A DNA stretch of 32,003 bases from the IMG/VR virus record IMGVR_UViG_3300021420_000097, positions 1 to 32,003 of that record; one strand, written 5' to 3'. A model generated the notes under the pieces. That model was given only the letters and a program-made list of their open reading frames with translations. It had not been told where the DNA came from and ran no database searches. This stretch comes from a virus. Below are positions 3,387-18,517 of the stretch, piece by piece (the stretch's first letter is position 1; each line of letters starts with the position of its first letter). The position numbers and the translations under genes were made by a program.

Positions 3387-3395
3387 GGAGCAAAC

Positions 3396-3971
3396 ATGTC
3401 ACGTCTTCTCGCGATTCTTCTCGCGGCAGCGTTGCCGATTAGTGACGCAATTGCGCAAACTGTCACTTCGCAGCCGACGTTTATTCAATCGCGGCAGTGG
3501 GCAGACTTGGGCAATGGCCCGCTTGATATTCAGCCGGTTGAAGGTAACGGCAGTCTTTACTCTTCGTCCGGAACCGGCATCGGCAGTACGTCGGGCTCGT
3601 CTACTAGTTTGACGCTGACTGCGGCTCCGGCAATTCAGCCGTGCGTCGGCTGCATCATTTCCGGATCGGGGATCACGTCGGGGACGACTGTTACTGCGTT
3701 TAACGGCGTTACGAACATCACACTTTCGGCGTCGATGACTGTGCCAGCTTCGTCCGCGATTGCGTGGGGGGCTGCGTGCCCTGCGGCAACGGCTGCAAAC
3801 GTTCCTGGCGTTGCACCAGGTACGATTACGCCACTGCAATTAAGCGCGCCGCTGCAGATACGTTCCGGTATGAACAACACATTTCCGCTGTACACACAGG
3901 CACGGCTTTGTGCATACGGCGCGCAACAGAACGGGTGGACGTTCCTGTACTTCGCGATTGGTGCCCACTAA
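3396..3971 (+). CDS. Secreted beta-rich tail-fibre-like protein
   Basis: A 191-aa protein behind AAGGAG. It begins with a classical Sec signal peptide (MSRLLAILLAAALPISDAIA, predicted cut before Q21). The mature part is Ser/Thr/Gly-rich. It contains a unit of the kind found in phage fibres (CIISGSGITSGTTVTAF, then NITLSASMTV), also seen in a related form in the tailspike at 15142. Three or more Cys residues could form disulphides in the periplasm. Fibre-like sequence with an export signal is unusual. The role may be virion-associated or host-surface; neither is proven. Confidence 0.75.
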   Translation: MSRLLAILLAAALPISDAIAQTVTSQPTFIQSRQWADLGNGPLDIQPVEGNGSLYSSSGTGIGSTSGSSTSLTLTAAPAIQPCVGCIISGSGITSGTTVTAFNGVTNITLSASMTVPASSAIAWGAACPAATAANVPGVAPGTITPLQLSAPLQIRSGMNNTFPLYTQARLCAYGAQQNGWTFLYFAIGAH

Positions 3972-3983
3972 GGATGTGAGTTG

Positions 3984-5072
3984 ATGCTGTGGATCGGGCT
4001 CGCCGTGTCGCTTTGTTACATTCCGGGCTTGACCGGAGCGTACATCGCGACGCAGTGGCCTTTGTTGGCCGTGATTTTGCCTTTTGGGCTGTTGCGGAGG
4101 GGACCGTTTACAGTTTTTCATTTGCTCGGGCTTCTCTTTTTTGATTATGCGGCAGTGCACATACTTTGGAGTCCTAATCCGTACGGTTCCGTCTATGGCG
4201 TGTGGTTGCTCGCCATTTCGGCGTTGGTTGTATGGTTTGGGACCACGTTGGAAGATCCGCGTGATTTATACAAAGGATTGGCTATCGGCGCCATTTTGTC
4301 GAGCTTCGTTGCCGTGCTGCAGTTTTTCGGTATTGGCGTCGTGCCCGTTACATCAACAATGCCCGCTGGCCTGTATGTCAATAGCGTCCAACAGGGTACT
4401 GTGCTTGCTCTTGTAGCGGTCGCGTTGATGACGGAGCGCATGTGGCCGTGGATTCCGCCATTGCTGCCCGGCATTTGGCTTTCGCACTCCCGCGGCGGTG
4501 CTATTGTTTTGCTGGTAGGATTGCTTTGCTGTTGTTCGCGTCGTTTGTGGATACCGGCAGGCGTTATTGCGATGGCAGCTTCGATTTACTTGTTTTATCC
4601 GCTTTCGCCGTCCGACAGTCAACGTCTGTACATATGGCACGTTGCATGGGATAACTTGACGCTGTTTGGCTTCGGTGCTGGGGCTTTCTTCAGTGTAGTT
4701 TTCATGCACGACGGCGTTACCTTGTTTCCGGAGTACGCTCATAATGATTTTCTGCAGTTTGCCTTCGAATTCGGCATCGGTGCGGTTCTTCCTGCGATTA
4801 TCATTGGTTATGCAGTATGGCGTACGGACGTTAAAGAATGGCCCGTCGTACTGGCGTTCTGTACAGCAGCGTGTTTTTCAATGCCGCTCTCCATGCCGAT
4901 CGCTGCGTTTCTTTCTTTGGTCGCTGTGGGGCGCGTTCTTCGTGCTCATGGTCTACATGGCAGTGAGCGCAATTATCGCGGATATGATTTCTTATCGTGG
5001 GATGACACGTGCCGACTGGCAACTCGCGGCCGAAATCTTTCCGTGGCATCGCAGTATTCAGCAAAAGGCTAG
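3984..5072 (+). CDS. O-antigen ligase/polymerase-like membrane protein (Wzy_C/WaaL type)
   Basis: A 362-aa polytopic inner-membrane protein with about 10 hydrophobic segments. Family signatures of the WaaL/Wzy O-antigen ligase fold are visible: LSHSRGG at ~166-172, the R-x-x-I-W pair at ~214-218, FGFGAGAF at ~229-236, and the periplasmic-loop motif EYAHNDFLQ at ~250-258 with the conserved His. In bacteria these enzymes join or polymerise undecaprenyl-linked sugar chains on the periplasmic face. A phage copy could alter lipopolysaccharide and block superinfection (inference). The ATG at 3984 with AAGGA at 9 nt is preferred over the TTG at 3981. The last ~40 residues look like out-of-frame sequence; see the overlapping ORF at 4948. 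Confidence 0.8.
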   Translation: MLWIGLAVSLCYIPGLTGAYIATQWPLLAVILPFGLLRRGPFTVFHLLGLLFFDYAAVHILWSPNPYGSVYGVWLLAISALVVWFGTTLEDPRDLYKGLAIGAILSSFVAVLQFFGIGVVPVTSTMPAGLYVNSVQQGTVLALVAVALMTERMWPWIPPLLPGIWLSHSRGGAIVLLVGLLCCCSRRLWIPAGVIAMAASIYLFYPLSPSDSQRLYIWHVAWDNLTLFGFGAGAFFSVVFMHDGVTLFPEYAHNDFLQFAFEFGIGAVLPAIIIGYAVWRTDVKEWPVVLAFCTAACFSMPLSMPIAAFLSLVAVGRVLRAHGLHGSERNYRGYDFLSWDDTCRLATRGRNLSVASQYSAKG

Positions 5073-5079
5073 GCAATGA
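4948..5079 (+). CDS. Overlapping small membrane ORF or frame-shifted tail of the O-antigen gene
   Basis: In the +1 frame over the 3' end of the O-antigen ligase-like gene there is an ORF that looks coding. It has a hydrophobic helix (GAFFVLMVYMAVSAIIADMI, which begins before the ATG) followed by DWQLAAEIFPWHRSIQQKAR. Its stop overlaps the next start as ATGA, the rule for this operon, whereas the ligase frame ends 3 bp before that start. It is either a separate gene from ATG 4948 (43 aa, weak ribosome site) or the true C-terminus of the ligase after a +1 shift near 4910-4930. Confidence 0.4.
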   Translation: MVYMAVSAIIADMISYRGMTRADWQLAAEIFPWHRSIQQKARQ

Positions 5080-5465
5080 GCGGCGTCGATAGTGCTAATC
5101 AATTTCCGAATAGCTTCATGGCTAAAGCCGTGAAGCTGGGCGTGTCTAGGTTTGTGTCTGACGATTATCCGAATCGAATTCAGCTTCTCGAACAGAACAA
5201 TGTCAGCATTGCCGTGGCGACTGGTTTGACCGTTCCGAGCGGTGCAACGTCGCCACCGGGGACGACCGTGAATAACATACCGACATATGCGGTTATTACA
5301 GCGATTGGCGGCCCGCTGTATGCCACTTATGACGGCTCGACGCCCAGTTCTGTAAATTATGCCGTGTTGCTTGCTATGGGTGCGTCATTGCCTGTACAGG
5401 GCGAGCAAGCGCTCGTGGCGATCAAAGTTCAGGGAACGACAATGTCCGTTAGTTATTGGAGCTGA
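5076..5465 (+). CDS. Small beta-rich structural protein
   Basis: A 129-aa protein with AAAGG seven bases before ATG. It is predicted all-beta, with TYAVITAIGGPLYATYDGST and a final MSVSYW strand. The style (YATYDGS, ALVAIKV, SVSYW) is that of small phage virion or decoration proteins. No enzymatic motif is present. It sits between the O-antigen gene and a coiled-coil membrane protein and is translationally coupled to the upstream frame. Confidence 0.65.
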   Translation: MSGVDSANQFPNSFMAKAVKLGVSRFVSDDYPNRIQLLEQNNVSIAVATGLTVPSGATSPPGTTVNNIPTYAVITAIGGPLYATYDGSTPSSVNYAVLLAMGASLPVQGEQALVAIKVQGTTMSVSYWS

Positions 5466-5469
5466 ATAG

Positions 5470-6018
5470 TTGGTAAGCCCTAAAAAATTAAACACGGCGA
5501 ACGTGACCAGTAAAAAACAACACTCGGGGTTAGTTAACGGCTGGACCTTTAATACGTTACAGGCTCACATAACGGCTCTGATTGATGCTAATATGCTCCT
5601 AAATGATCGCATTGATACGGAAAGACAACGATTCAACGATGAAAGGGATAGACGATATTCAGAAGTCAATACTGAACGTGAAAAAGCCCTAAAAATCAAG
5701 GAAGAAGCCGACAAAGCCGCGCTTGGTTTGGCGCGAGAAATACAGAGCTACAAAGACGAGAAGGCTAATCAATTGCGTGAGCAGATCAGCGGCGAGCGTG
5801 GCACCTACGCCAGCAAGGATGACTTGTCTGCTGCAACTCGCGAGATCGGCGCTATCATAGCTCCACTCACAGCGTTTGTATCTTCGCAGCGAGGTGAGCA
5901 GATCGGAGGAACGCAGGCGATCAGCAGGATGTTATCGATCATCGCCGTGCTTACAGGATTATCGACGATAATTTCCGCAGTGGTCGGCGTGACCGTTCTT
6001 ATTCGATCTGTACATTAA
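5470..6018 (+). CDS. Coiled-coil protein with C-terminal transmembrane anchor
   Basis: A 182-aa protein. It starts with TTG, supported by GGAG at eight bases and by the absence of a better start. Residues ~35-115 form a long charged coiled coil (DRIDTERQRFNDERDRRYSE). The last ~30 residues are a hydrophobic helix (IIAVLTGLSTIISAVVGVTV) ending RSVH. This layout (cytoplasmic coil plus tail anchor) is common in phage membrane proteins near tail or lysis genes, and the function is unknown. The DNA here is more A-rich than its neighbours, which hints at separate acquisition. Confidence 0.75.
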   Translation: MVSPKKLNTANVTSKKQHSGLVNGWTFNTLQAHITALIDANMLLNDRIDTERQRFNDERDRRYSEVNTEREKALKIKEEADKAALGLAREIQSYKDEKANQLREQISGERGTYASKDDLSAATREIGAIIAPLTAFVSSQRGEQIGGTQAISRMLSIIAVLTGLSTIISAVVGVTVLIRSVH

Positions 6019-6030
6019 CGGAAGATTAAA

Positions 6031-6111
6031 ATGACGCCGTTGTTGATCGTGCTCGCAATTTCAGTTTGTATCATTGTTTTGGGGATTTTGCTGGTTGTTT
6101 TCGACAAGTAA
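6031..6111 (+). CDS. 26-aa membrane peptide
   Basis: ATG at 6031 follows GGAAGA by 7 nt. The whole product is one hydrophobic helix (MTPLLIVLAISVCIIVLGIL and on) ending FDK. It sits directly after the tail-anchored coiled-coil gene. The function is unknown. The good ribosome site and the uninterrupted membrane helix are the only evidence. Confidence 0.5.
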   Translation: MTPLLIVLAISVCIIVLGILLVVFDK

Positions 6112-6159
6112 AGTGTTAAGGTAGATTCGTAGAGCGGCAAACGAAGGAGCAAAAGGACT

Positions 6160-6729
6160 ATGACCCTAAAAACAGATCTTGAGCGTACAATCGCCAATTT
6201 GACGGGACTGGAGAACGCGGCTCGAACGCTGAAAAATCAGAACTTTGCCGATATCGTGCTGTCGGCGCGTGGGCGACTGTCGCAACTTACTGAGCATCCG
6301 GATATCGATACGGTGCAGCGGCATTTGAGCGGCGAGCCCGAGCAAGGTGGCGGAACTCACCTGAAAGAGCTGCTTGATCGCGCTCACGACAGTCTGAAAG
6401 AGGCGCGGGAGGCTGTTGACAAAGTTCCCAAGGCCGAATCTGATACGGGGGCCGTAAATCCTAAGTTGTTTCCGCCGGTCAATGAGCTGCGTGAACTGCC
6501 GAAGGCTGAACCAGACAATCCGATCGGGCAGCTGTTTGAACCGCCGTCGCATCCCGCGAGCGGCTTGCCAAACGGACTTTTGCATCGCAATGCGGTTGGG
6601 AAACTGTTCGAAGTTCGTGACGGAACATGGATTCCCGCGAAGGCCGAAAAGCAGCCGTTTCCAAATCCGGATGCGGGTACGTCGGCACAATATCATGACC
6701 CGCGTTCAGGACAGGGCACGCCACAGTAA
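6160..6729 (+). CDS. Hypothetical helical protein with Pro-rich C-terminus
   Basis: A 189-aa protein with AAGGAG and a second AAGGA before ATG. Residues 1-85 are charged and helical (LERTIANLTGLENAARTLKN, then LLDRAHDSLKEAREAVDKV). Residues 90-189 are Pro/Gly/Asn-rich and look disordered. No transmembrane segment or signal is present. It lies within the accessory plus block and resembles no family I can name. Confidence 0.65.
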   Translation: MTLKTDLERTIANLTGLENAARTLKNQNFADIVLSARGRLSQLTEHPDIDTVQRHLSGEPEQGGGTHLKELLDRAHDSLKEAREAVDKVPKAESDTGAVNPKLFPPVNELRELPKAEPDNPIGQLFEPPSHPASGLPNGLLHRNAVGKLFEVRDGTWIPAKAEKQPFPNPDAGTSAQYHDPRSGQGTPQ

Positions 6730-6739
6730 GAGGTGAAAC

Positions 6740-7072
6740 ATGGGAACGCGATTTTGCGGTCATAAAACGGGGTTCAATCCTACCGGCGAGAACGACATTA
6801 CGCCGAACTTCATGGGGCCTCCCGCCACCAAGTTCGGCGGCCGGCCGGCGGTGCCCAAGGGGCCTCTCAAACGCTTCCCTGGAGCTACGGCCGACATTAG
6901 CTCGGGCAACAGGCGCCTGGCAAAGTCGAAGCACGGGGATGGTGGCGGCGATGGTGTCACGTACCGTGGCTCTACCGCGTTTGGCAATCGCGAGGGCGGC
7001 ATGCGCTCGGGACGCAAGCCTGGCGGTATGGACGGCAAGCGCTCGCGTAGCATGGCCGACAACAAAAAGTAG
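6740..7072 (+). CDS. Basic Gly/Arg-rich hypothetical protein
   Basis: A 110-aa protein behind AGAGGTG. It is very rich in Gly, Arg, Lys and Pro (for example GGMRSGRKPGGMDGKRSRSM) and probably disordered. Short basic proteins like this occur near phage structural genes and may bind DNA or capsid (inference). The long antisense ORF across it is Ala/Arg-rich shadow sequence. Confidence 0.6.
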   Translation: MGTRFCGHKTGFNPTGENDITPNFMGPPATKFGGRPAVPKGPLKRFPGATADISSGNRRLAKSKHGDGGGDGVTYRGSTAFGNREGGMRSGRKPGGMDGKRSRSMADNKK

Positions 7073-7078
7073 GTCGAC

Positions 7079-7513
7079 ATGACCTTCTATAGGCCTGGCG
7101 GCAATAACAAGGCGATCAACCGCCAATATGATTGTGTGTACGGCGATGCCATTGGCCTCGCTACGGGTTGGTTGCCCGTCAACAAAGGAGATACAATCGC
7201 CGTCAACATTGCTCGCGCGTCTATCGCTTTTAGTTCTGCGGCGTCGAGTGTCGTTACTATGTCGCCGGTTGCGCCTGAGGCGACAGTGTTGATGGAAATG
7301 CGCATGTTTGGCGTGGATCAGAACTCGCAAAGTCCGAACGCTGGCATGTGGCCCGCAGATCAGTGGCAGAACATGGTAGTTGCCACGTCACGGAGGGCGC
7401 ATCGTTCAGGGTGGATGCGACTGCGTATTTTGAATATCAACAACGGGGATGGAACTGGCGTTAACATGGCGATGCAGATTTCGCGTACGGGTGACGTAGG
7501 AGCGCAAACGTGA
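7079..7513 (+). CDS. Hypothetical beta-rich structural protein
   Basis: A 144-aa protein, with AGG 5 bases before ATG. It begins MTFYRPGGNNKAINRQYDCV and has many alternating hydrophobic residues and no Cys cluster, consistent with a beta-sandwich virion protein. Its stop overlaps the next start as GTGA. The function is not recognised; its position between virion-like genes suggests a structural role. Confidence 0.65.
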   Translation: MTFYRPGGNNKAINRQYDCVYGDAIGLATGWLPVNKGDTIAVNIARASIAFSSAASSVVTMSPVAPEATVLMEMRMFGVDQNSQSPNAGMWPADQWQNMVVATSRRAHRSGWMRLRILNINNGDGTGVNMAMQISRTGDVGAQT

Positions 7514-7839
7514 CGGTTTATGTGGACGACGTTCGGCATTGTTTCGGACGCATGATTATGTGCCACATGTGGGCAGATAACATTGCCGACTTGATGACGA
7601 TGGCGGATGCGATCGGCGTGCAGCGAAAATGGTTGCAACAACCGCCGAAAGCGTCATGGATGCATTTTGACATTAGTTTGGGAAAGAAGGTTCTGGCAAT
7701 AACAAAAGGTGCGATTCTTACTGACAAATACGGACCGGCCGAACATGTCGCGGGATTGCGGGGAGATTCGATGATGTTAGCGCAAATTGCGAATTGTCGT
7801 AAATTGTTGTTGCCTAATGTGATGCCATGGGCGGCATAG
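7510..7839 (+). CDS. DUF4031 family protein
   Basis: A 109-aa protein starting with GTG inside the upstream stop (GTGA). It matches the DUF4031 pattern closely: MTVYVDD at the start, R-x-x-x-C-H-M-x-A-D at ~15-25, then A-x-x-I-G-V-x-x-K-W-x-Q, a later H-x-D-I and K-x-x-A-I-x-x-G-A. This small family is frequent in phages and their hosts and has conserved His and Asp residues. A nuclease-like or metal-binding role has been guessed but its biochemistry is not known to me. It overlaps the next gene by 13 bp. Confidence 0.85.
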   Translation: MTVYVDDVRHCFGRMIMCHMWADNIADLMTMADAIGVQRKWLQQPPKASWMHFDISLGKKVLAITKGAILTDKYGPAEHVAGLRGDSMMLAQIANCRKLLLPNVMPWAA

Positions 7840-8459
7840 ACAACGGTTCGATCCAGAGCGGCGTCTTTTTTCAAGCCAAGCAATTTGGATCGCTTTTGCG
7901 TGGCAGTGGGCCGCCTGTGTCACAGGCTGGCGTTCTGGGTGATTTGTACGTAGATGTGCAGACGTGGAATTTGTATAGTAAGCGGTCGTCCGACACAGTA
8001 AGTGACGTAGATCCTTGGGGGCACTATATATTTGTCGTGCCGCCTACTTATCAATTACAATTGAAATGGTTCAGTACGTCGGCACCTGATGACAGCGTTG
8101 GCGTGACTGGCGATTATTGTTTGGCGTGGGCAGGTTTTGGAAACTATGGTTTGCAACCATTTATCTACGGACCGAAAGGCACCAACAATACATGGCCAGA
8201 AAACGGCAACGGCCCAAGCACGTTAATAGTCACAGGTGGCGTGTTTCCACTTGGGCTATCTGGCGAGGGTACGCAAGTCGCGTACAGCACATCAACTCAG
8301 TTGATTACTGCAGGGATTGTAGACGAGTACGTAGCGGCTACCCCAGTTGCGAATGTAATTGGCACGCCTGTCGGTCAGATTGGTTTGCGACAGCAGCCAA
8401 CGCCTGTTGCCGTTACGCTTAATACGCTGTACACGTTTGAGGATAGCCATGCCATATAA
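7827..8459 (+). CDS. Tail-fibre-like protein, long copy of a duplicated pair
   Basis: A 210-aa protein. The N-terminal ~135 residues are closely similar to the product at 8733 (NGxxQSGVxFQAKQFGSxLR, then GDLYVDVQTWNLYSKRS and VDPWGHYxF). The motif G-x-G-P-P...G-x-x-G-D-L-Y-x-D is a common phage fibre and tail module. This copy has an extra segment of about 65 residues after YGPK, then the shared ending VTLNxLYTxEDSH. No clear ribosome site is visible, so translation may depend on coupling to the DUF4031 gene. Confidence 0.75.
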   Translation: MGGIDNGSIQSGVFFQAKQFGSLLRGSGPPVSQAGVLGDLYVDVQTWNLYSKRSSDTVSDVDPWGHYIFVVPPTYQLQLKWFSTSAPDDSVGVTGDYCLAWAGFGNYGLQPFIYGPKGTNNTWPENGNGPSTLIVTGGVFPLGLSGEGTQVAYSTSTQLITAGIVDEYVAATPVANVIGTPVGQIGLRQQPTPVAVTLNTLYTFEDSHAI

Positions 8460-8736
8460 GTACAATCACATTGCGGACAATGTTGCAGCACAAACCATAT
8501 TTGAGCGTAACATGCCGGATCTTATTAGTTGTCTTTTATCGGGGGCGTCTAGCGAAGCTGGGTGCGGTTGTCATTCATTACAAAAGCATGACGATGGCAT
8601 CTTAATTTCGCGCGGGACTGCTGAATTTATAGTGCGAAGATTAAAAAGTCAGGCAGCGCTTGCCGAAGTTGAAGTTGCTTTAGCCATGGCAAATGCTAAA
8701 ATTTCGGCATTGCATCAACAGAATGGCGAATCATGA
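8449..8736 (+). CDS. Hypothetical 95-aa protein between the duplicated pair
   Basis: The ATG at 8449 follows GAGGA and overlaps the previous gene by 11 bp; the stop overlaps the next start as ATGA. The protein is helical with Cys and His residues in the middle (GAGCGCHS-type cluster near residue 39-42) and a C-terminal amphipathic helix (AALAEVEVALAMANAKISAL). It lies between two paralogous fibre-like genes, so it may have been inserted during or after the duplication. The function is unknown. Confidence 0.65.
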   Translation: MPYKYNHIADNVAAQTIFERNMPDLISCLLSGASSEAGCGCHSLQKHDDGILISRGTAEFIVRRLKSQAALAEVEVALAMANAKISALHQQNGES

Positions 8737-9173
8737 GCGGGTTTGATAACGGCACGATGCAGAGCGGCGTCTACTTTCAGGCGAAGCAGTTTGGCAGTAT
8801 TCTGCGCGGTAACGGGCCGCCCGTCCCGCAAGCCGGCGTTGTCGGTGATCTGTACATAGACGTTGCGGCGTGGAATCTGTACAGTAAGAGATCAACGGAC
8901 AGCGGTGGCGACGTTGATCCGTGGGGGCATTATTTGTTCGCCGTGCCGGCCACTTACCAGCCGGCTTTGAAATGGTTTGGCACTGCAGCGCCAACCAACG
9001 ATATCGGCGTGAACAACGATTACTATTTGTTATGGGCTGGGTTCGGGAATTACGGGCTTAATCCTGTGTCTATATATGGACCAAAAGCTGCAGGTGCGTG
9101 GCCAAGTACAGCAAACCCGATTACTGTCACGCTTAATTCGCTGTATACGGCTGAAGATAGCCATAGTGTATAA
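8733..9173 (+). CDS. Tail-fibre-like protein, short copy of a duplicated pair
   Basis: A 146-aa paralogue of the product at 7827, aligned over its full length except for the ~65-residue insertion in the longer copy. It contains the G-D-L-Y-I-D and VDPWGHY blocks and the ending VTLNSLYTAEDSHSV. The start is coupled to the preceding gene by ATGA. It is likely a virion tail or appendage component. Two diverged copies may recognise different partners (inference). Confidence 0.75.
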   Translation: MSGFDNGTMQSGVYFQAKQFGSILRGNGPPVPQAGVVGDLYIDVAAWNLYSKRSTDSGGDVDPWGHYLFAVPATYQPALKWFGTAAPTNDIGVNNDYYLLWAGFGNYGLNPVSIYGPKAAGAWPSTANPITVTLNSLYTAEDSHSV

Positions 9174-9185
9174 AGGAGGTTAATA

Positions 9186-9371
9186 ATGATTCCATGGCCC
9201 GATCCGACGCCTGAAATGCTGAGATCTGCTGAATTTGAAAAAGTTTGGCAATGTATCAAAAAGTGGGATATTAAGGTTCCTGATGCTTACAGTGGATACT
9301 GTGAGGCTACCGGGAACCATGTTCGCGCAATTCTCGATGCACTAGGCAGGCCATGTCCTACAATTCGCTGA
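9186..9371 (+). CDS. Hypothetical 61-aa protein
   Basis: It has a near-perfect ribosome site (AAAGGAGG, then TTAATA before ATG). The product is small, soluble and Trp/Pro-rich (MIPWPDPTPEMLRSAEFEKV, then W-x-x-I-K-K-W-D). The pattern resembles small conserved phage proteins carrying a predicted helix and a GNHVRAILDAL ending. The function is unknown. It overlaps the next gene by 19 bp. Confidence 0.7.
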   Translation: MIPWPDPTPEMLRSAEFEKVWQCIKKWDIKVPDAYSGYCEATGNHVRAILDALGRPCPTIR

Positions 9372-9979
9372 CTGACTTCGTGGCGTTGCTTCGCAGTACG
9401 GGCGGCGGCGTTCGTGAAGAACAAATGCCGGGCCTTGATTTTGTCGTGGCTGCTTTAGGTCGTGCTGGTTTCATAACTTTGGCAGTTCAGGCTACCGCAC
9501 CAATATCTAATCAAGCCGCAACGGCTTGGTTTCAACCCGCGTCGCCATCGTGGAGCGCCGAGGGCATTCTGTACCTGTGGAATGCAGCGCTTTCGGTTTA
9601 TCAGCCCGCCACGCCCGCTTTGTGGACGCAGTATTTTTTGCCAATTGCATCTGGTTATTTGTTTCAGAAGATAACCGGGACGGGGCAGTCTATCGTTGCT
9701 GGCACGTCACTGGCAGCTATACAGCGCGCCGCGCCGTCCACTACAGCGATCATACTCCCGACGCTTGCCAGTCAATTCGCCAGCGGGAAGAAGTTGCAGA
9801 TTGTGGATTTTTCCACGGCCGTCACGAATCACGTTATTACTCTAAGCGTGCCTGAGATAGTTTCGTCACCAACTATTATGGGGCAATCAACGCTACAAAT
9901 GCTTTCCACAGCTGTACAGCTTGGAGGAGTCATGTTACAGCCGTCCCCTGATCTCAATACATGGGTAATAGCGCCATGA
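9353..9979 (+). CDS. Tail-fibre or structural protein
   Basis: A 208-aa protein with AGG six bases before ATG. It is rich in Ala, Ser, Thr and beta-forming residues (AATAWFQPASPSWSAEGILY). The second half reads as a beta-strand repeat region, with a closing GGVMLQPSPDLNTWVIAP that resembles phage fibre C-termini. No export signal is present, unlike its downstream neighbour. Its position next to a fibre-like secreted protein supports a tail role. Confidence 0.65.
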   Translation: MSYNSLTDFVALLRSTGGGVREEQMPGLDFVVAALGRAGFITLAVQATAPISNQAATAWFQPASPSWSAEGILYLWNAALSVYQPATPALWTQYFLPIASGYLFQKITGTGQSIVAGTSLAAIQRAAPSTTAIILPTLASQFASGKKLQIVDFSTAVTNHVITLSVPEIVSSPTIMGQSTLQMLSTAVQLGGVMLQPSPDLNTWVIAP

Positions 9980-11244
9980 AAATGCTTCGTTTGATTCCCA
10001 TCGTTCTTGCATGCCTCATTGCGATTCCAGCACTCGCGCAGTGGCAAACGCCGAATCATTCTATTCCTGTCGGTCGTGATATCGGCGTCATCGGTTTTGG
10101 TAGTGTCGGACCGTGTAATTCCGGCGTGCCAATCATTGGGGCCGGGGCTTCTGCCGATCCGGCGTGCACTGCGCTTTCTTTAGGTGGTGCAGGTGTTACG
10201 GGGAACTTACCTCCTGCTAATCTTAATTCCGGCACCAACGCATCCGCCACGACGTTTTGGCGTGGCGATGGTGCATGGTCGAGCGTTCTGTCTTCTACGC
10301 TTGCCAATTCCGCCCTTAGTTTCAGCATGCCAGTCAACTTGCAGCTTAATGCTAGTGTAATAGCGAGCAATTTGACGATTGCTGTCTTAGGGAACAACGG
10401 TAGCGCTCCGTCGGCAGCCAATCCGGTGTTGATTCCGTTCCGCGACGCGACAGTTGCAAACGGCGATCCAGTAATTTTGTCGCTTCAAGCGCCGTTGAAT
10501 ATTTCGGCTACTTCGGGTTTTGCAGTAGGGTGCAACAATGCCCAAATGTGTCGATTGTGGGTCGCGGCAATTAATAATGCCGGTACTCCATCTTTGTGCG
10601 TATACAATGCGCGCTCCGCACCGGCAGGAGCGTTTGCCAGTCTGATTCCTCTCAATGAAAGTAGGGTCTATACGTCTTTTGCAGGATCGGGAGGCGGTGC
10701 TAACGCACAAGTGCTGTATTGTACGGCCGTATCTGTCACAAATTCGCCAATTAGAGTGCTTGGGTATGTAGACGTACAAGAAGCTACTGCAGGAGCTTGG
10801 CTTACAGGTCCGACTACTGTGCAATTGGCTGGTCCAGGCATTCCCATAGCCGGCCAAACGGTTCAAGAAATGTGGGCGAGTACTGCGGTCACTCAATCTA
10901 TTACTTCAGCTACTCCTGCCGCCAGTACTAATATGACGTTAAATTTGGTTCCTTTCAGTGCATCCGATATAGTTGCATGCTCAGCCTCAACATGGCAAAA
11001 TCCCGGGGCAGCGGCGAGTTTATTGATTGCCCAGATTTATCGCGGTGCCACGGCTTTAGGTCAACCGATACAGACGGGTGCATCTTCTGGCCTTCCTGCT
11101 GTGTCTGCTATTTCCGTGGGTCCGGTGTTTGATATACCAAATTCCGTTTCTTCGCAGACTTATGCGCTGTTTTTTGCCGGTAACGGCACCAACGCGAGTT
11201 TGGTCGAGAACGGCACTTTCACTTGTCGAGAGCTACAAGGATGA
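9976..11244 (+). CDS. Tail-fibre protein with a Sec signal peptide
   Basis: A 422-aa protein. The ATG at 9976 overlaps the previous stop (ATGA) and directly starts a signal peptide (MKMLRLIPIVLACLIAIPALA, predicted cut before Q); an ATG at 9961 would lengthen it. The mature part carries the widespread phage fibre motif TGNLPPANLNSGTNAS, then TTFWRGDGAWS, at ~75-105. The rest is Ser/Ala-rich beta sequence. The fibre motif marks it as a tail protein family member, yet it should be exported to the periplasm. It lies just upstream of the endolysin. Confidence 0.8.
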   Translation: MKMLRLIPIVLACLIAIPALAQWQTPNHSIPVGRDIGVIGFGSVGPCNSGVPIIGAGASADPACTALSLGGAGVTGNLPPANLNSGTNASATTFWRGDGAWSSVLSSTLANSALSFSMPVNLQLNASVIASNLTIAVLGNNGSAPSAANPVLIPFRDATVANGDPVILSLQAPLNISATSGFAVGCNNAQMCRLWVAAINNAGTPSLCVYNARSAPAGAFASLIPLNESRVYTSFAGSGGGANAQVLYCTAVSVTNSPIRVLGYVDVQEATAGAWLTGPTTVQLAGPGIPIAGQTVQEMWASTAVTQSITSATPAASTNMTLNLVPFSASDIVACSASTWQNPGAAASLLIAQIYRGATALGQPIQTGASSGLPAVSAISVGPVFDIPNSVSSQTYALFFAGNGTNASLVENGTFTCRELQG

Positions 11245-12266
11245 CCGTTCCGTCTTTTAGTTTGTTGGCACCACATTATGCCAAACTGTGGACGGAGCTT
11301 GTTCCGTCGCCGGCTCACATGCCGGAACTCATTAAAATCTGTAATGGCCTTATCGCACATAAAGCGACTTACCAGCAAGTCGCGCAAACTGTGTGGGGCG
11401 ATCCTGGTCTTTACTGGTACGTCGCCGTCAATGATCAGATGGAAGGCGGCGGCGGCGCGTGTACTTTTCTCGGGAATGGACAACCGCTTAATCGCGTCAC
11501 GACGGAAGTCCCGGCCGGACTCGGTCCGTTTGCCAGCTTCCTGGCCGGCGCCATTGTCGCGTTGCGAGGGGTTTCGGCGCCAACATCGATTGAGCGTGCG
11601 GCATTTGATTGGGAAGCGTTCAACGGTTGGGGCTATCTTAGTAAGCCGATCGAAAACCCTTATCTTGCATCGGACTCGAATGAGTATACCAAAGGCAAGT
11701 ATATCGCTGATCACGTCTACAGTGCGAGTGCGATTAGCGGGCAGCCTGGCGCGCTGACGATTTTGAAGGTTCTTGCGGGGCTCGACCCGACGATCAAGAT
11801 TTCATTGGAAACACAACCGGAGGTTCCCGTGGCTGAAACTTCAACTGCAGCTCCCCAGATCGATATGAACACTTTGGCTACGCTCGTCGCGGCTCAGCTT
11901 CGAGCTCAGCCCGCCTCAACGCTGCCGATGATTGTTCAAGGCGTGAACATGTCAGGCATCACGCTCGCTTCAACTGTCGCTCACGTGAACGCCTTCATGC
12001 CGATCGTCGGAACATTGCTCGGGTTCATGCCGCCGCCCTGGAATGCGGCCGGCCCAATTGTGTTGCTCGCGCAACGCGGCATCAGCGCCGCGGTGGATGT
12101 GACCAGTGCGATTCAGACCGACCCTTCTACGGTCGGAACCGTGCTCAACAGCCACATGGACGTGATTGGAGCTTTGGCAATTCAGCTCGAAAAGCAGTTT
12201 CCAAACATCAAGCCGTGGGTCGACGCCATCAGCGGCATCACTGCAGCAAAAGTTACAACCAATTGA
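11241..12266 (+). CDS. Endolysin, lysozyme-fold peptidoglycan hydrolase
   Basis: A 341-aa protein. The ATG at 11241 is inside the upstream stop (ATGA); TTG at 11223 is a weaker choice. Residues ~10-100 follow the phage lysozyme-like family seen in many proteobacterial and cyanobacterial phages: Y-x-x-L-W near the start, a V-N-D-x-M-E-G-G block with the likely catalytic Glu at 68, then GNGQPLNRVTTEVPAG. A second block, W-E-A-F-N-G-W-G-Y ... SNEYTKGKYIADHVY ... QPGALTILKVL, at ~125-190, is also typical. The last ~150 residues are extra, with hydrophobic helices of unknown role. It is followed by a holin. Confidence 0.85.
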   Translation: MTVPSFSLLAPHYAKLWTELVPSPAHMPELIKICNGLIAHKATYQQVAQTVWGDPGLYWYVAVNDQMEGGGGACTFLGNGQPLNRVTTEVPAGLGPFASFLAGAIVALRGVSAPTSIERAAFDWEAFNGWGYLSKPIENPYLASDSNEYTKGKYIADHVYSASAISGQPGALTILKVLAGLDPTIKISLETQPEVPVAETSTAAPQIDMNTLATLVAAQLRAQPASTLPMIVQGVNMSGITLASTVAHVNAFMPIVGTLLGFMPPPWNAAGPIVLLAQRGISAAVDVTSAIQTDPSTVGTVLNSHMDVIGALAIQLEKQFPNIKPWVDAISGITAAKVTTN

Positions 12267-12279
12267 AAGGATGCATCCT

Positions 12280-12654
12280 ATGGATAGCACTACCACAAGT
12301 TTTCTGGAAACCGTGATCGCCGGACAGGTTCGCCACGTTCTTACGGGCGTCGCTGGTGGCCTTGTCGCCCACGGCGCCCTCACAGCAGATCAAAGCAATT
12401 CGTTCGTTCAGATCGGCGCGGGCCTCGCGTTATACGGCGTTGGAGCCGGATGGTCGTGGTGGCAGAAAAATGGACAGGCGCTTGTCAAAGCGCGGCTCGA
12501 CAAACTCAGGCATCGCGTGCAAGCCATTCCGATCGTAACGGCGGCTACACCGACGATTGCGGTCAATTCAACCATCATCAGGGCGAAGGAAGAGGCAGCT
12601 GTTCCCATGGGGGCAGTTGCAGTTCTTCCCGTGACGGAGGACCAGCGATCATGA
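12280..12654 (+). CDS. Holin
   Basis: A 124-aa protein with AAAGGA eight bases before ATG 12280. Residues ~10-65 match the small phage holin pattern: R-H-V-L-T-G-V-A-G-G-L-V-A-H-G-A-L, a short loop, then a second hydrophobic segment ending GAGWSWWQKNG. The remaining C-terminus is basic and then Val/Ala/Ile-rich. It forms membrane lesions that release or activate the endolysin, whose gene is immediately upstream. Confidence 0.8.
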   Translation: MDSTTTSFLETVIAGQVRHVLTGVAGGLVAHGALTADQSNSFVQIGAGLALYGVGAGWSWWQKNGQALVKARLDKLRHRVQAIPIVTAATPTIAVNSTIIRAKEEAAVPMGAVAVLPVTEDQRS

Positions 12655-12896
12655 CCATGCCGGATCGCATGTTCCCTTGGATTTGGACCGTGTTTGCTCT
12701 CGTGTTCATTGTCGGTTTTGCGGCGATCGAAGGGTGGGCGCTTGCGACCGGCGGCACGACATTGTCGCGATACACTTATGAATTGTCGAAAGACTGGCCG
12801 GTTCTGCCGTGGTTGCTCGGCAATGTCACGGGAGGGTTGGCAGTGCATTTTTGGTGGCATTGGACCGTCCCCGGAGAAGCGGGCGATGGAGGTTAA
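12651..12896 (+). CDS. Small two-span membrane protein of the lysis cassette
   Basis: An 81-aa protein whose ATG overlaps the holin stop (ATGA). It has a first transmembrane segment (IWTVFALVFIVGFAAIEGWA) and a second hydrophobic stretch ending GGLAVHFWWHW. The pair W-P-x-L-P-W-L-L-G-N and G-G-L-A-V-H-F-W-W-H-W is typical of a small membrane protein often seen beside holins in phages of Gram-negative bacteria. It may be an accessory holin or a regulator of lysis timing (inference). No spanin pair was recognised. Confidence 0.7.
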   Translation: MTMPDRMFPWIWTVFALVFIVGFAAIEGWALATGGTTLSRYTYELSKDWPVLPWLLGNVTGGLAVHFWWHWTVPGEAGDGG

Positions 12897-12902
12897 ACAT
12901 TC

Positions 12903-14441
12903 GTGTCCGTTCCATGGGAGCGGCCTGTTCGATTGAGTAAAGAGAGCGTACGGAATGTTCTTCTTTTCAATTTCGATCGGTATCGTGAGACATTTCTGCG
13001 TGTTCGCCCTCCCATAGGTGGCGAACGCATTCCGTTTATTTTGAACAGCATGCAGCGCGTTTTGCATGCCAGCATTGAAAAAGAACACGCCAAGTTCGGC
13101 ATGGTGCGCGCTCTGGTCCCCAAAGCTCGGCGGATGGGCGTTAGTATGTACATAGGTGGCCGTTATTTCCATCGCACCGCAACGCAGGCCGGCCGACGTG
13201 CGCAAGTTGTTGCGCACCGATCTGATAGCGCCACGAACCTGCATCGGGAGATCAAAGAGTTTTACAATGGGCTTCCTGCATGCGCGCGTCCGCATTTGGG
13301 CGCATCCAATGCACGTGAGTTGATTTTTGACGTACTTAAATCACTGTACAAAGTCGCGTCGGCGGAAGGTGGCGACATTGGCCGTTCCGATGATTTTCAT
13401 TTGCTGCATCTGTCGGAAGCTGCATTTTTTGACAACACAGAAGACCTGTCATCCGGCTTGCTACAAACTGTACAGAACCTTGCAGATACAGAAATCATTA
13501 TCGAAAGTACGGGTAACGGACAATCAGGCATGTTCTACAGCATGTGCCAGGAAGCGCACGCCGCACGGAATGAAGGACCGTGGCGATTGTACTTCTTACC
13601 GTGGCCATTAATGCCTGAATACCGCATGACAGTTCCCGCCGGTTGGAAAGCTCCGAAAGAATTCGAAGACTACGCTAAATTTCATGCGCTTGATCAGGAG
13701 CAAACATATTGGTTTTGGCTGGAGAACTACACGATTGCCGCAATGAATGGCGGTCACCCCGGAAGCATTCATAGGCTGACGAGGCAGGAGTATCCGGCTA
13801 CGTACGATGAATGTTTCATGGCGGATAGCACGCTGGACTTTTTCTCAGCGTCTATTGTGCAGGCTGCCATGATGCGCAGGCCGAGTCCGTCGGCCGGTGC
13901 GCTTAAGCTTCTTTGCATCGATCCGGCCGGCGATGGACAGGACAAGCCTTTCGTGTGCGACCGGCAAGGTTCCGCGATTGGGGCTCGGGTCTGGGGAGAG
14001 CTAGCTAATAGGGACTACAATGTGCAAGCAGATTGGCTTGTACAGACTTTCGAGCGTTTCAGCATGGATGCGATTCTTGTGGACATTACCGGGACTGGCA
14101 AGGGGCTTGCGGATGCGTTGCGGCTTCGCATGCGGCGGTTTGGGGTGGAAAAAGTGGTAGCAGTGAATTTCGCTTGGGGTGCTCTTAACGGTACGCTGTA
14201 CGGCAATCGGCGTGCAGAGCTGCATGATAAATTTCAGCGATGGTTGCAAAACGACGTGTCGATGCCAAATGACAAGCAGTTGCAAGAGGAAGCGGCGGCG
14301 TACAAATGGGGTCAAGGCGGTTGCCGGCGTGATGAAAAAGCGCGACTGTTTATGACGCCGAAAGAGAAAATTCGTGCGGAGACTGGTCGATCACCCGATC
14401 GGCTTGATGCCTGCGTTGTTTCAATGGCCATGGAGGGCTAA
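12903..14441 (+). CDS. terL: Large terminase subunit (TerL)
   Basis: A 512-aa DNA-packaging motor. The ATPase N-domain has a divergent Walker A (K-A-R-R-M-G-V-S, ~74-81), a Walker B-like L-L-H-L-S-E-A-A (~167-174) and the coupling motif ESTGNG (~201-206). The RNase H-like nuclease C-domain shows Asp residues in LLCIDPAGDG (~337-344) and ILVDITGTGKG (~391-401) and in the final RSPDRLDACVVS. The start is GTG with GGAGGT nine bases upstream. It docks on the portal and cuts concatemers. It follows the lysis genes, and no clear small subunit is adjacent. Confidence 0.95.
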   Translation: MSVPWERPVRLSKESVRNVLLFNFDRYRETFLRVRPPIGGERIPFILNSMQRVLHASIEKEHAKFGMVRALVPKARRMGVSMYIGGRYFHRTATQAGRRAQVVAHRSDSATNLHREIKEFYNGLPACARPHLGASNARELIFDVLKSLYKVASAEGGDIGRSDDFHLLHLSEAAFFDNTEDLSSGLLQTVQNLADTEIIIESTGNGQSGMFYSMCQEAHAARNEGPWRLYFLPWPLMPEYRMTVPAGWKAPKEFEDYAKFHALDQEQTYWFWLENYTIAAMNGGHPGSIHRLTRQEYPATYDECFMADSTLDFFSASIVQAAMMRRPSPSAGALKLLCIDPAGDGQDKPFVCDRQGSAIGARVWGELANRDYNVQADWLVQTFERFSMDAILVDITGTGKGLADALRLRMRRFGVEKVVAVNFAWGALNGTLYGNRRAELHDKFQRWLQNDVSMPNDKQLQEEAAAYKWGQGGCRRDEKARLFMTPKEKIRAETGRSPDRLDACVVSMAMEG

Positions 14442-14445
14442 GATA

Positions 14446-14655
14446 ATGAGCACAGTGAAACTTGCGCGAATTCCAGATCGCGTACATACAAAAGCAGAGT
14501 TGCTTGGCATTCTCGCCCAAATTGATTTTCGAAGCATCGTTGTTCTAATTGAAGAAGGCGATGGTGTTATGTCTATGACTATAGATGGTACTACTGCAGA
14601 GCGTATGAATTGGATGCTGGATCGGGCGAAACTTCGTTTGCACTGTGCAGATTGA
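14446..14655 (+). CDS. Hypothetical 69-aa protein
   Basis: ATG at 14446 follows GGAGGG. It is a small alpha/beta protein (MSTVKLARIPDRVHTKAELL, then IDFRSIVVLIEEGDGVMSMT) ending with a helix, ERMNWMLDRAKLRLHCAD. A similar strand-helix pattern occurs in many small phage proteins of unknown function. No catalytic residues are apparent. It lies just after TerL, and its stop codon lies within the -35 box of a candidate promoter. Confidence 0.65.
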   Translation: MSTVKLARIPDRVHTKAELLGILAQIDFRSIVVLIEEGDGVMSMTIDGTTAERMNWMLDRAKLRLHCAD

Positions 14656-14680
14656 CATATAAGAGTGTACAGTGTAAGAC
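14652..14680 (+). promoter_or_regulatory. Candidate sigma-70 promoter for H1-like gene and tRNA
   Basis: A perfect TTGACA at 14652-14657, a 17-bp spacer and TAAGAC at 14675-14680 (3/6) lie 28 bp before the ATG at 14709. The small palindromes TGTACA and GTGCAC flank the -10. Transcription from here would cover the RHH protein and the tRNA and stop near the hairpin at 15093-15123. Confidence 0.4.
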
Positions 14681-14708
14681 GTGCACACCTTCATAGGAGC
14701 ACGTACGT

Positions 14709-14996
14709 ATGGAAACGGAGAGTTCTGAGAGCGCAATTCAAGTGCCTGTCAAGCCGAAACCGAAGAAGAAGGCGAAACCTGCCAAGCTGAAACCGAAGAA
14801 GGCTAAGGCGAAGCCTGCGACAAAACGTCGCACGCATAAAAACGGGGCTGCACGCAAGCCTTCTGTCGTACTGCGTGCCTGTCGCATGGATATTCGTTTG
14901 ACGGCCGCGGAGAGAGAAAAGCTCACGCGCAAGGCTGCAGCGATGCGGCGAACCGTGACGAGCATCGTTGCCGAGCTTATCGAGAAGATGAAATAG
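14709..14996 (+). CDS. Histone H1-like tail fused to a ribbon-helix-helix domain
   Basis: A 95-aa protein with AGGAG nine bases before ATG. Residues ~14-50 are almost only Lys, Pro, Ala and Arg (for example KPKPKKKAKPAKLKPKKAKA), like eukaryotic H1 or bacterial H1-like tails. Residues ~58-95 read as a ribbon-helix-helix: strand RMDIRLT, helix AAEREKLTRKAAAMR, turn, helix SIVAELIEKM. The likely role is DNA binding, either as a repressor or in genome compaction (inference). Its stop codon shares a base with the tRNA gene. Confidence 0.75.
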   Translation: METESSESAIQVPVKPKPKKKAKPAKLKPKKAKAKPATKRRTHKNGAARKPSVVLRACRMDIRLTAAEREKLTRKAAAMRRTVTSIVAELIEKMK

Positions 14997-15079
14997 CTCC
15001 CGTGGCGAAATGGGAAACGCGAGAGACTTAAAATCTCTTTGCATTAGCAGTGCAGGTTCGAATCCTGTCGGGAGCACCA
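14996..15079 (+). tRNA. tRNA-Leu (UAA)
   Basis: The acceptor stem GCTCCCG (14996-15002) pairs exactly with CGGGAGC (15069-15075). The D arm is GCG...CGC. The anticodon stem AGAGA/TCTCT holds the loop CTTAAAA with anticodon TAA. A long variable arm, as expected for tRNA-Leu, precedes the T arm (CAGG-TTCGAAT-CCTG). The CCA end is encoded (15077-15079). The first base is also the last base of the upstream TAG stop codon. It would read UUA and UUG, and TTG codons appear frequently in these genes. Confidence 0.93.
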
Positions 15080-15092
15080 CATTTAGATCAAA

Positions 15093-15123
15093 GAGCCCGC
15101 GGTCGTCCAGGTACCGCGGGCTC
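15093..15123 (-). terminator. Hairpin terminator between convergent blocks
   Basis: GAGCCCGCGGT (15093-15103) and ACCGCGGGCTC (15113-15123) form a perfect 11-bp stem with a 9-nt loop. On the minus strand it is followed by TTTGATCT, a short U-rich tail, and it lies 19 bp after the tailspike stop. On the plus strand, after the tRNA, the tail is C-rich. It may therefore serve mainly the minus transcript and only slow the plus one. Confidence 0.65.
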
Positions 15124-15141
15124 CTGCCCCCTTGCCCGTCT

Positions 15142-18100
15142 TTATTGTCCGTTCTGATGGTACTGAGCCGTCGCTGAGGCGTCAAGTGCTGTGCAGGTGC
15201 CGGCGGAAATTGCCCATGCCGTATAGTCACCTGCGGTGATTGCTGGATTGGTGACTGATCCTGCAACGGCAGCTCCGCTTGCCGTTAAGGTTACTGTTCC
15301 GATTGTGATCGGTGTTGCGGTGCAAGTTGTGCTCGTTCCGCATTCGTAAAAAGTGATCGTTGGGTTTCCTGTGCAGGTGAATGAACTAGCGGACCCTATT
15401 AAATTGTCTACAGTTGATGATTTTACCCATTTTTGGAATTGAGCAATAGTATTAACTATGCTTGCCTGCAATCCAGGGGCATATGACGTAGACAATTGCG
15501 GGCCTGGTCCTACGGTACGTCCGCTCAGTTCATAGGGAAAGATTGGATACAGACCGCTTGCTGTGGCGGCGGACCCTAGCGTTATTGAGCCTGGATTGGC
15601 GGCAATGACTGTCGCATATTGATTGCCGCCGGCATTGCTTGTCGGCCATGGTGAGCTACCAGTGCCGAACGTAAACGGCGCAAGTACTAGATCGCCGTTC
15701 TTGTAGAATGTTCCTAGATCGGTGCCGACTACGCCATTGCCATTGCTGACGTTGCTTACGGTCGTACTGCCATTAGCAAATTGACCATATTCCAGTTGTC
15801 CTGGAATCACTACGCCGGTTTTTATGAGCGCGGTATTGCCTGAGTTCAGGAGCGGCGTTGCATTGAGGTTGCTCGCCCACGTATTCGTTCCAGGCGCCAC
15901 CGTCATATTGTTTTGTTGAACGGCTGTGACGACCGATGACGTAGTTGGTGCGAACGTGCAGTTAGTCGCGTCGCTTGCTGGTGAGCCGACGGAAGTTACG
16001 ACAAATATCGTGTTACTGTTAAAATGGTACAGAATATCTCCGGGAGCTATTACGTAAACAATTCCGTTGGTTCCTCCTTGGTAAACACTGCAATAATTGA
16101 ATGTCATCGTATCGCCAGCGTAAGCCGGCAACACTGAAATTTGAGTACCGGGAGAGGACGGAAATACAAGCTGTGCCGGAGCTGGTACCGTCATTTGCCA
16201 AGAGCGGCCCTGTGAATCCACGTACGTCTTCATGTCTTGTGTCATCGGGAACCGATTGGTTAGGGTTCCGCGCGTGAGCACATCAGCATGTGGGTACGAA
16301 CTCAGGCTCGAACTGGCAGTCATTGCCTCCGCGCCGACTGATTGACTGTTGTTGACCGTATAGGTGCCATTGCCGCCGCCGCCAGTGCCGAAAGCAGTTA
16401 TGCACGTATTTGCGGTAACTCCTGCGCCAGTAAATATGCAGGACCCGATTGCCAGCGATCCATTAGTGACACCGCCGGTAACCGTCAGCGTAAGGCTGGA
16501 TATGGCTCCCGTAAAGCTCGCAGTTGAATAATATGAACCGAGATAGTATTGTGGCACAGACCAATTATTGATGGCGCTAGAATTGTAACGCGGCGCCCCG
16601 GCAAACATACCGCCAGAGTAATTGATCGCTTGCAACTGCATGGGAGTTACCGCTCCCGCTACAGCGCCCTGGATGCCGCCCCCATTTAAGACAGCAGTAG
16701 TTTGTGCTCCGCCACAAAACAGATTGCTGATGCGCTGGTTTCCATTGTAATTGACGCCGGTCATGCGAATTTCGGCGTTTGTGGCAGTTATGAAACACGC
16801 TGGAATTTGACCGTGCAACGTTTCAGTTAGATTAAACGTGCTGTTTTTCAAATCGACTAAATTATTGAAGGATGTATTGGAAACGAAATTACCAACTCGT
16901 ACGCATCCCTCACAATATATTTCCGAAATATCGAGAGGGCCGGATAGTCCAAGGTTTCCAAAGTTAAACATCTGGTAGGCCGGCGAGCAACCGATGTTGC
17001 TGATTGGGCCATTGAATTCACCCGATTGCATTCCGAGCGTAGTTTGGTCGATTACGGTGTAATTGAAGCCGCAAATGATGTTGCTGATATTGACGTTGCG
17101 GCTTTGTGAATTGGTTACGCTGAGCCCGTAGGGATTATATGCAATGTTGAGGTTTGTTATTTTAGCAAAATCCCCATTGTTTTGGGTGTTCAAACCAACG
17201 GCAAACGCAACTGCAAATCCGTCAATGTTTACGTTTCGCAGTTCAATATCCGACGTAACCGATTTGCCGTATTGGGCGCTTAGTCCTGTCCACGCCGGAA
17301 ACGTCAGATTTGGGTACGCAGGCGATGGCTGTGTGCCGGCATAGGCATCCACTGTTACCGCTGCCCATGGTGCATGCTGGGTAAATCCGCCAGATGTTCC
17401 GGACGGTGTGAATTCCGGCGGCAGCCAATCATTTACATTCGACGATAAATTAGAGCCGCTGCCCATTGTGAAAAACAGGTAGTTATACAGTCGGCCCCAA
17501 ATTGCAACGCCATACAGACCGACCTGCCGTCCGGATGTGAAATCGATTGCCGGTCTATCTGTTTGGGTTGGGTAGAGAGTACATCCGGGCAGTTGATTGT
17601 ATCCGGCACGATACCCACCGGATAGACGCAATCCATAAAGGCCTCCGTTCGCTCCTTGCGCTCCCCAGCCGACGTGAAGAGTATCTGTGATTTTGAAATT
17701 TCCGAGGCAATAGAAATCAGCGACTCCCGACTGCATTCCGTAATCAAACATGGCTTGGAAGGCGGCCGTGTTGTTGGTACCGACAACGGCGTCTCCCCAC
17801 GCAACCGAAGGAATCGTCAACATCGTCGGTACGGTTTGCGACGTGACAACGTTTCCTGAACCGACGCTGACGACAGTTGTGCCGCTTGGTATGATAGCTA
17901 GAGAGGTGGCTTGGCGTGTCGCCCAGCCAATGGTTGAAATGTGCTGTCCGGCAGCCATCCCGTTTGTGCTTGAAACAGTAAGCAGCGTCGTGCCGTTCGC
18001 AGTTGCCGTCCAGCCATACGCCCCGGCAATTGGCGATCCGCCATCGGAAAGGGCGCCCCACTGTTTTACGTCTACGGCGCCGGAGGGAAATGCAGCGATC

Positions 18101-18423
18101 CAGCACTTGCCGTCCGCGCTCGGAACTTGTGCGCCGCCGTCACCGGCTCCTGCGTTGAACGTGCAAGCGCTTGCACTCGGATTGTAGAATAGCGGCGGCG
18201 CACCGTTGCCGTTGCCGTAGGTCGTGCGCCAAACGCCAGTGGGATAGGCCGCTGTAGAAGCCAATGTGAGGGCTGTTAAGTTGGCAACCCCTCCTGCACC
18301 ACCGGTACCGCCGCCCCCTCCTGGATTGTTGGGGAGTTGGCTGCCACCAAAATTAGGGAGTCCCTGTGCTAGAGCGGCGACGCAAAACAGCAGTAACAGA
18401 ATAAATGGAACTATCCGTTTCAT
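15142..18423 (-). CDS. Tailspike (pectate-lyase-type beta-helix) with a Sec signal peptide
   Basis: A 1093-aa protein. The ATG at 18423 follows AGGTGA and begins a signal peptide ([19 protein letters not shown], predicted cut before Q), then a Gly-rich linker. At ~105-220 is the tailspike head motif [13 protein letters not shown] ... [11 protein letters not shown], which opens a right-handed beta-helix such as those of capsule- or O-antigen-degrading spikes. Asn/Ser-rich helix coils fill ~220-620. Around 660-720 is a fibre repeat with [20 protein letters not shown]. The C-terminus is small and Thr/Ala-rich. It probably binds or cleaves surface polysaccharide. The export signal is unusual for a virion spike. 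It is the last gene of the minus block. Confidence 0.85.
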
Positions 18424-18427
18424 TGCG

Positions 18428-18517
18428 TCACCTCGTTCTGCCTGCAGCCCAGATAATAGTCGCCCACCCAAACAGAAGAGCGAGTATCATCAATGGACCG
18501 CCCAGTTCTGAACACAT
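18428..18517 (-). CDS. 29-aa membrane peptide before the tailspike
   Basis: ATG at 18517 is preceded by AAGGG at 10 nt. The product is [10 protein letters not shown], then a hydrophobic helix ([15 protein letters not shown]), then GRTR. The stop is 4 bp before the tailspike ATG, and the tailspike ribosome site (AGGTGA) includes this gene's stop. It may be a coupling leader or a true small membrane protein. The function is unknown. Confidence 0.5.

Follow-up and report, generated by a model that had tools for sequence, protein, structure and literature searches.

Signal peptides and even cysteine counts suggest export of fibre- and spike-type proteins in a tailed phage

In the usual view, tailed phages assemble their virions entirely in the cytoplasm, a reducing compartment that is unsuited to disulfide-rich receptor-binding proteins. 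Why, then, would three fibre- or spike-type genes of one soil phage begin with signal peptides? We addressed this question in the window, by which we mean the whole 32,003-base stretch of viral DNA analysed here. The genes in question start at 3396 (+), 9976 (+) and 18423 (-) and are called genes 1, 2 and 3 below (Table 1). The initial annotation had placed classical signal peptides at these starts, had argued against chance, and had proposed that the products could be exported as decoys or free depolymerases or may join virions after lysis.

The window belongs to the genome of a tailed phage, about 52 kb in size (a near-identical record has 52,374 bases), and its gene content includes a terminase, a head closure protein, a DNA-ejection protein, a capsid protein and a holin. 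Thirty-three related loci were found. The terminases of named phages are distant from that of the window, all below 60% identity and 27-30% at best among the matches listed. No integrase was matched in 11 of 12 relatives of about 52 kb, the twelfth (G010) giving one weak match, and a temperate lifestyle was rejected on the basis of this absence. As clues to the host, scans of genome contigs detected no prophage that shares the window's terminase, a plasmid search with the outer-membrane-like protein of one relative gave no match, and a plasmid search with gene 3 gave short Rhizobium matches to its N-terminal domain only. A possible host in the Hyphomicrobiales is a lead only.

Table 1. Positions in the window of the three leader-bearing genes and of the features discussed with them.
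Feature	Position	Strand	Details
Leaderless cysteine-free protein (cluster 19), directly 5' of gene 1	2649..3386	+	
Signal peptide, gene 1 (MSRLLAILLAAALPISDAIA)	3396..3455	+	Score 5.37; cleavage expected before Q21; mature start QTV
Mature gene 1, 171 aa, fibre-like	3456..3971	+	Exactly four Cys in 8/8 family members
Polytopic membrane protein, O-antigen ligase/polymerase (Wzy_C) kind, adjoins gene 1	3984..5072	+	Family matches PF04932
c7s, short leaderless fibre protein	9353..9979	+	~95-residue anchor-like N-terminal domain, ~110-residue C-terminal domain, no Cys
Signal peptide, gene 2 (MKMLRLIPIVLACLIAIPALA)	9976..10038	+	Score 5.78; mature start QWQ
Mature gene 2	10039..11244	+	Adapter QWQTPNHSxPxGRG, TFWRGDGAW linker, variable beta-rich tip; 8 Cys
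Holin, Pam3 gp28 family	12283..12654	+	PF23987, 37.1 bits against a cut-off of 27; lysis region 3' of gene 2
Mature gene 3, 1074 aa	15142..18366	-	18 Cys; N-domain known from leader-bearing pectate-lyase-like spikes elsewhere
Signal peptide, gene 3	18367..18423	-	Score 5.98

Leaders were scored with a rule-based sum of n-region charge, a 10-residue hydrophobic core and the -3/-1 rule, which is not a trained predictor. The threshold of 4.6 was calibrated on 61 E. coli proteins: yaaX, yaaI and cpoB were flagged, NhaA was flagged wrongly, and ModA and YbgS were narrowly missed. Because these last two lie just below 4.6, the rule is conservative. Three of the 51 window genes reach the threshold, and the scores of genes 1-3 are the highest in the window; the next-best start in any other reading frame scores 4.94. 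When N-termini were shuffled (200 trials), a mean of 0.06 window genes and a maximum of 1 reached 4.6, so that three leaders never arose by chance. Of the 984 genes predicted in 13 records, 37 reach the threshold against 1.6 expected, although starts in relatives were picked by best leader score, which inflates these counts.

All three leaders are of the classical Sec/signal-peptidase-I type, with a positive n-region, a hydrophobic core and an A-x-A motif followed by Q, and the initial annotation was correct to this extent. Its description of them as near-identical was too strong: the genes have the type of leader in common, not the sequence. Between the window and L001 the leaders diverge fast, mostly at the protein level, and remain leaders, as signal peptides do. 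They recur in 8 of 8 members of the gene-1 family and in all gene-2 relatives found. Beyond the leader we detected no further membrane segment in genes 1-3 (19-residue hydropathy maximum, 1.43). Tat export was rejected for want of a twin-arginine motif, and lipoprotein export, including superinfection-exclusion lipoproteins of the Llp/Cor type, was rejected as the +1 residue is Q in all three proteins and not Cys. An outer-membrane barrel of the Lom/Omp type was also dismissed for these genes, which have no terminal F/Y and match no barrel family.

The starts themselves are supported as had been claimed, by a Shine-Dalgarno sequence AAGGAG at 3385-3390 for gene 1, by an ATGA shared with the c7s stop codon for gene 2, and by GAGGTGA at 18428-18434 for gene 3. 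True starts lying after the hydrophobic segment had been named as one of the findings that would overturn the proposal. Within the first 133 codons of genes 1-3, in-frame starts past the leaders have no ribosome-site match except a 3-base one at residue 133 of gene 2, and downstream true starts were rejected on inspection of these sites as none was plausible.

A second line of evidence comes from cysteines. In bacteria that possess DsbA, exported proteins are known to have characteristically even cysteine counts. The idea of examining parity was suggested by the gene-2 family alignment, where the mature cysteine columns fall into pairs with the same presence pattern, gained and lost together (the lone unpaired cysteine, in L087, is the single exception), and was then tested across all genes. 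Among mature leader-bearing proteins with cysteine, 27 of 29 have an even count, compared to 238 of 507 other genes (p = 1.7e-7); at the family level (43 leader-bearing families, all loci), the count is even in 32 of the 37 families with cysteine (p = 6.7e-7), and since the relatives share ancestry and their counts are not independent, both p-values overstate independence. Cysteine density is the same in leader-bearing and other genes of the same genomes (1.61 versus 1.58 per 100 residues), so that in this comparison the signal lies in parity and not in density. As a control, 47 distinct leaderless phage proteins with the TFWRGDG linker have 0.25 cysteines per 100 aa and no tendency towards even counts (12 of 31 are even). 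The mature products of genes 1-3 have 4, 8 and 18 cysteines, as disulfide-bonded exported proteins would, and those of the gene-2 family are also paired. Taken together, the even counts indicate that the leader-bearing fibre and spike proteins probably fold outside the cytoplasm. There are counter-cases: 4 of the 27 cysteine-bearing exported partners of short c7 proteins (see below) have odd counts, and one long leaderless c7 protein (G009:28570-30549, 659 aa, with a pectate-lyase-like tip) has 16 cysteines, an exception to the association of cysteines with leaders. The tip of this protein may originate from an exported protein.

The arrangement around gene 2 suggests what an exported fibre protein could be. 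The hallmark of its family is a leader, which is kept across the family, followed by the adapter QWQTPNHSxPxGRG, after which the C-terminal part varies. Behind the adapter we found Peptidase_S74, endosialidase, beta-helix and Tail Collar domains as well as a weak carbohydrate-binding match. A constant N-terminal part with an exchangeable tip drawn from known fibre-tip domains is characteristic of tail fibres and tailspikes. Gene 2 itself had no match in a direct Pfam search and no recognised enzymatic domain. Its fold model is of moderate quality (pLDDT 60.7 overall, 70-85 over much of the tip); resemblances to Chlamydia Pgp3, the lambda central fibre and the phage KP1 baseplate were weak, and nothing was drawn from them.

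Immediately 5' of gene 2 lies c7s. Its first 95 residues are found again in each genome, in one to three proteins. After deduplication, all 29 short versions of this c7 family (~200 residues) have a leader-bearing gene directly 3', usually across a start-stop overlap, compared to 0 of 18 long versions. These overlaps and the long-version control argue against start choice as the cause of the leader counts. The long versions carry distal parts of their own, including pectate-lyase-like (659 aa) and Tail Collar (368 aa) ones, and the loci without a QWQTPNHS gene (G009, G010, L021 and L028) have long versions; those examined at such loci end in one or other of these two tips. The Tail Collar tip is exported in L006/L007 and leaderless in G010/L029 (40% identity over 202 aa). 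All 29 short c7 proteins together contain one cysteine, while their exported neighbours have up to 18. The C-terminus of c7s and the N-terminus of the exported protein each fall into three classes that go together, a match that is consistent with docking of the two but could also stem from adjacency of the DNA. This gene pattern supports gene 2 as the probable detached distal part of a split fibre. We found no relatives of the c7 family in named phages. Another leaderless family of the fibre region (cluster 0) has copies at 5076-5465, 7827-8459 and 8733-9173 of the window, with one to three copies per record.

Gene 1 matched no Pfam family, and no enzymatic domain was recognised in it; it has weak similarity to phrog_21413, a PHROGs family without known function that gene 3 also matches. 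The cluster 19 protein is immediately 5' of it in 5 of the 8 gene-1 records, one of which (G001) is near-identical to the window. On its other side, the Wzy_C-like family matches PF04932 in 6 of 6 members (best E 5e-8; the window copy, at 25.5 bits, is under the 31.7 cut-off) and has the conserved motif YxHNDxLQ. The Wzy_C-like gene is present in 7 of 13 records. A role of this protein in surface-glycan conversion is possible.

Gene 3 stands alone on the opposite strand, and its counterpart in L001 also has 18 cysteines. It had been called a pectate-lyase spike. This label derives from relatives of its N-terminal domain: in other phages, proteins that share this domain have leaders and the pectate-lyase-like domain PF12708; gene 3 itself has no Pfam match, and its fold model was discarded as unusable (pLDDT 27.8). 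About the place of gene 3, most relatives encode a leader-bearing protein of 220-265 aa that is mostly F/Y-terminated and resembles an outer-membrane barrel. At L003:2096-2890 and 14 other loci such a protein lies just 3' of the terminase and has AD after the leader. Profile searches of these proteins gave no convincing match; because of their F/Y ending, size and leader, they are probable outer-membrane barrels with a Lom-like placement.

Known phages offer partial parallels. Bcep781 gp49 and BcepC6B gp19 (annotated tail fibres of Burkholderia phages) and orf035 of Xanthomonas phage PBR31 have, like the genes here, a leader followed by fibre-type sequence, and their mature cysteine counts are also even (14, 4 and 2, respectively). 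BcepC6B gp19 and PBR31 orf035 lie just 5' of holin and endolysin genes. Their leader scores are lower by our rule (4.44 and 4.03), and all three phages belong to other groups than the window phage. The Bcep781 gp49 record reads 'possible tail fiber; possible signal peptide domain'. The only signal peptide mentioned in the PBR31 paper is that of the nearby esterase gp40. For Shewanella phage vB_Sb_QDWS, gene 23 (OK094664.1 14004-15260) is annotated from a start about 800 bases 3' of a leader start in the same frame, and the record lacks the leader; the full-length frame begins with the leader MIKKILLTALLVPAMALA, shares its N-terminal domain with gene 3, has a pectate-lyase-like match just under the Pfam cut-off and has 8 mature cysteines. 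OK094664.1 and OP650936.1 (Hujiaoplasma phage zrk29-1) are both 47,902 long and 100% identical in the searched stretch, and their stated hosts are a Gram-negative bacterium and a Tenericutes bacterium; one of the two host labels is likely wrong.

The usual tailspikes and fibres of tailed phages, such as the Peptidase_S74, endosialidase, beta-helix and Tail Collar types and the fibres of Lessievirus, likewise join a constant N-terminal part to exchangeable known tips, but they have no leader and few cysteines. Virion proteomics of Lessievirus JC1 detects one fibre, gp56 (PMC9144972); because the fibres of the related BcepIL02 have no strong leaders, this serves as a control and not as a test of export. 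Lambda Lom-type proteins (PMC12309495) are, as here, encoded by the phage and equipped with a leader, and their genes lie between or next to structural genes. Unlike genes 1-3, which lack barrel features, Lom is a membrane barrel, and it is the proteins at the gene 3 position in relatives that resemble Lom.

The core of the initial proposal, that fibre- and spike-type proteins of this phage are exported and not by chance, is well supported by conservation of the leaders in relatives and by the cysteines, and we consider export of genes 1-3, taken alone, very probable. Their products would leave via Sec, be cut by signal peptidase I after A-x-A, and form disulfides and fold in the periplasm. 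Because Sec export alone provides no exit through the outer membrane, they would stay there until lysis. On our reading, c7s would be the leaderless proximal part of the fibre, which remains cytoplasmic and is presumably attached to the virion. Gene 2 would be the detached distal part, in which a constant adapter carries an interchangeable tip that binds a receptor or a glycan. Assembly could then end with the docking of periplasmic tips on completed particles, once the holin has opened the inner membrane at lysis; genes 1 and 3 would be exported like gene 2. P22 tailspikes and T4 fibres add to finished particles in vitro, and late docking is thus not unreasonable. The suggestion that the products join virions after lysis gains support in this way for gene 2, from the fixed pairing with a leaderless partner and from the leaderless long versions. 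We found no tested precedent in the open-access literature for Sec-exported tips that dock on tailed phages. The whole statement, with genes 1-3 exported and disulfide-folded and gene 2 docking at lysis as the tip of a split fibre, falls a little short of an even chance in our estimate. A two-compartment receptor-binding apparatus, in which cytoplasmic stub particles and Sec-exported, disulfide-bonded tips are joined at lysis, is put forward more tentatively still.

Could the exported proteins act without joining a virion? One possibility is that they act within the infected cell's periplasm or on its surface, where they would cut or mask O-antigen-type glycans or receptors and so keep new phages from being wasted on debris or on cells that are infected already. 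Their partners would be the adjacent Wzy_C-like enzyme and, among relatives, outer-membrane proteins encoded by the phage. The conserved Wzy_C-like gene beside gene 1 speaks for this, as do the mostly F/Y-ending, barrel-like proteins that most relatives have about the gene 3 place. Lambda Lom is a known leader-bearing barrel encoded between tail genes (PMC12309495), and close to the leader-bearing fibre the Shewanella phage and PBR31 encode an O-acyltransferase or a putative O-antigen deacetylase. However, glycan remodelling explains neither the lock of gene-2-type genes to a leaderless fibre gene nor the long leaderless versions in place of the pair, and genes 1 and 2 have no recognised enzymatic domain; we regard it as rather unlikely. 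It could also be speculated that the products are free depolymerases or adhesins that build up in the periplasm and, released at lysis, clear capsule or exopolysaccharide for the progeny. Endosialidase and beta-helix tips, the weak carbohydrate-binding match and the pectate-lyase-like folds of gene-3-like proteins elsewhere are in keeping with this, but it gives no role to the constant adapter and the fixed leaderless partner, and we think it improbable.

The alternative to export itself is that the leaders are artefacts, either because the true starts lie downstream or because the hydrophobic ends have a different function, for example insertion into the membrane while the DNA enters. The leader calls do rest on a rule-based score and not on a SignalP-class predictor. 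This explanation is nevertheless very improbable, as genes 1-3 have no plausible downstream start, start and upstream stop are coupled at the leader, the leaders are conserved in relatives, and the cysteines are even and paired.

As Bcep781 gp49 illustrates, the presence of a leader on a phage fibre gene is in itself already known. For the systematic pattern, the evidence from cysteines and the arrangement as a split pair, we found no description in the open-access literature. If exported tips join virions, they are an exception to the rule on where tailed phages are assembled; if they stay off virions, they form a variable phage secretome of fibre parts acting on the envelope of the infected cell. 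A leader is easily lost by a downstream start call, as in one isolated phage, and such proteins may therefore be under-recorded. The combination of leader and cysteine parity provides a simple sequence test for exported fibre proteins.

Two further observations were made in these genomes. The product of 19744-20229 (-) of the window has weak similarity to the GroES co-chaperonin (Pfam Cpn10, 18 bits, below cut-off), and the gene is kept in 10 of 13 records. At G010:12640-15051 (L067), amid leader-bearing genes of the fibre region, a protein of 803 residues starts with MMKRRDFLTGAS, a twin-arginine-like signal.
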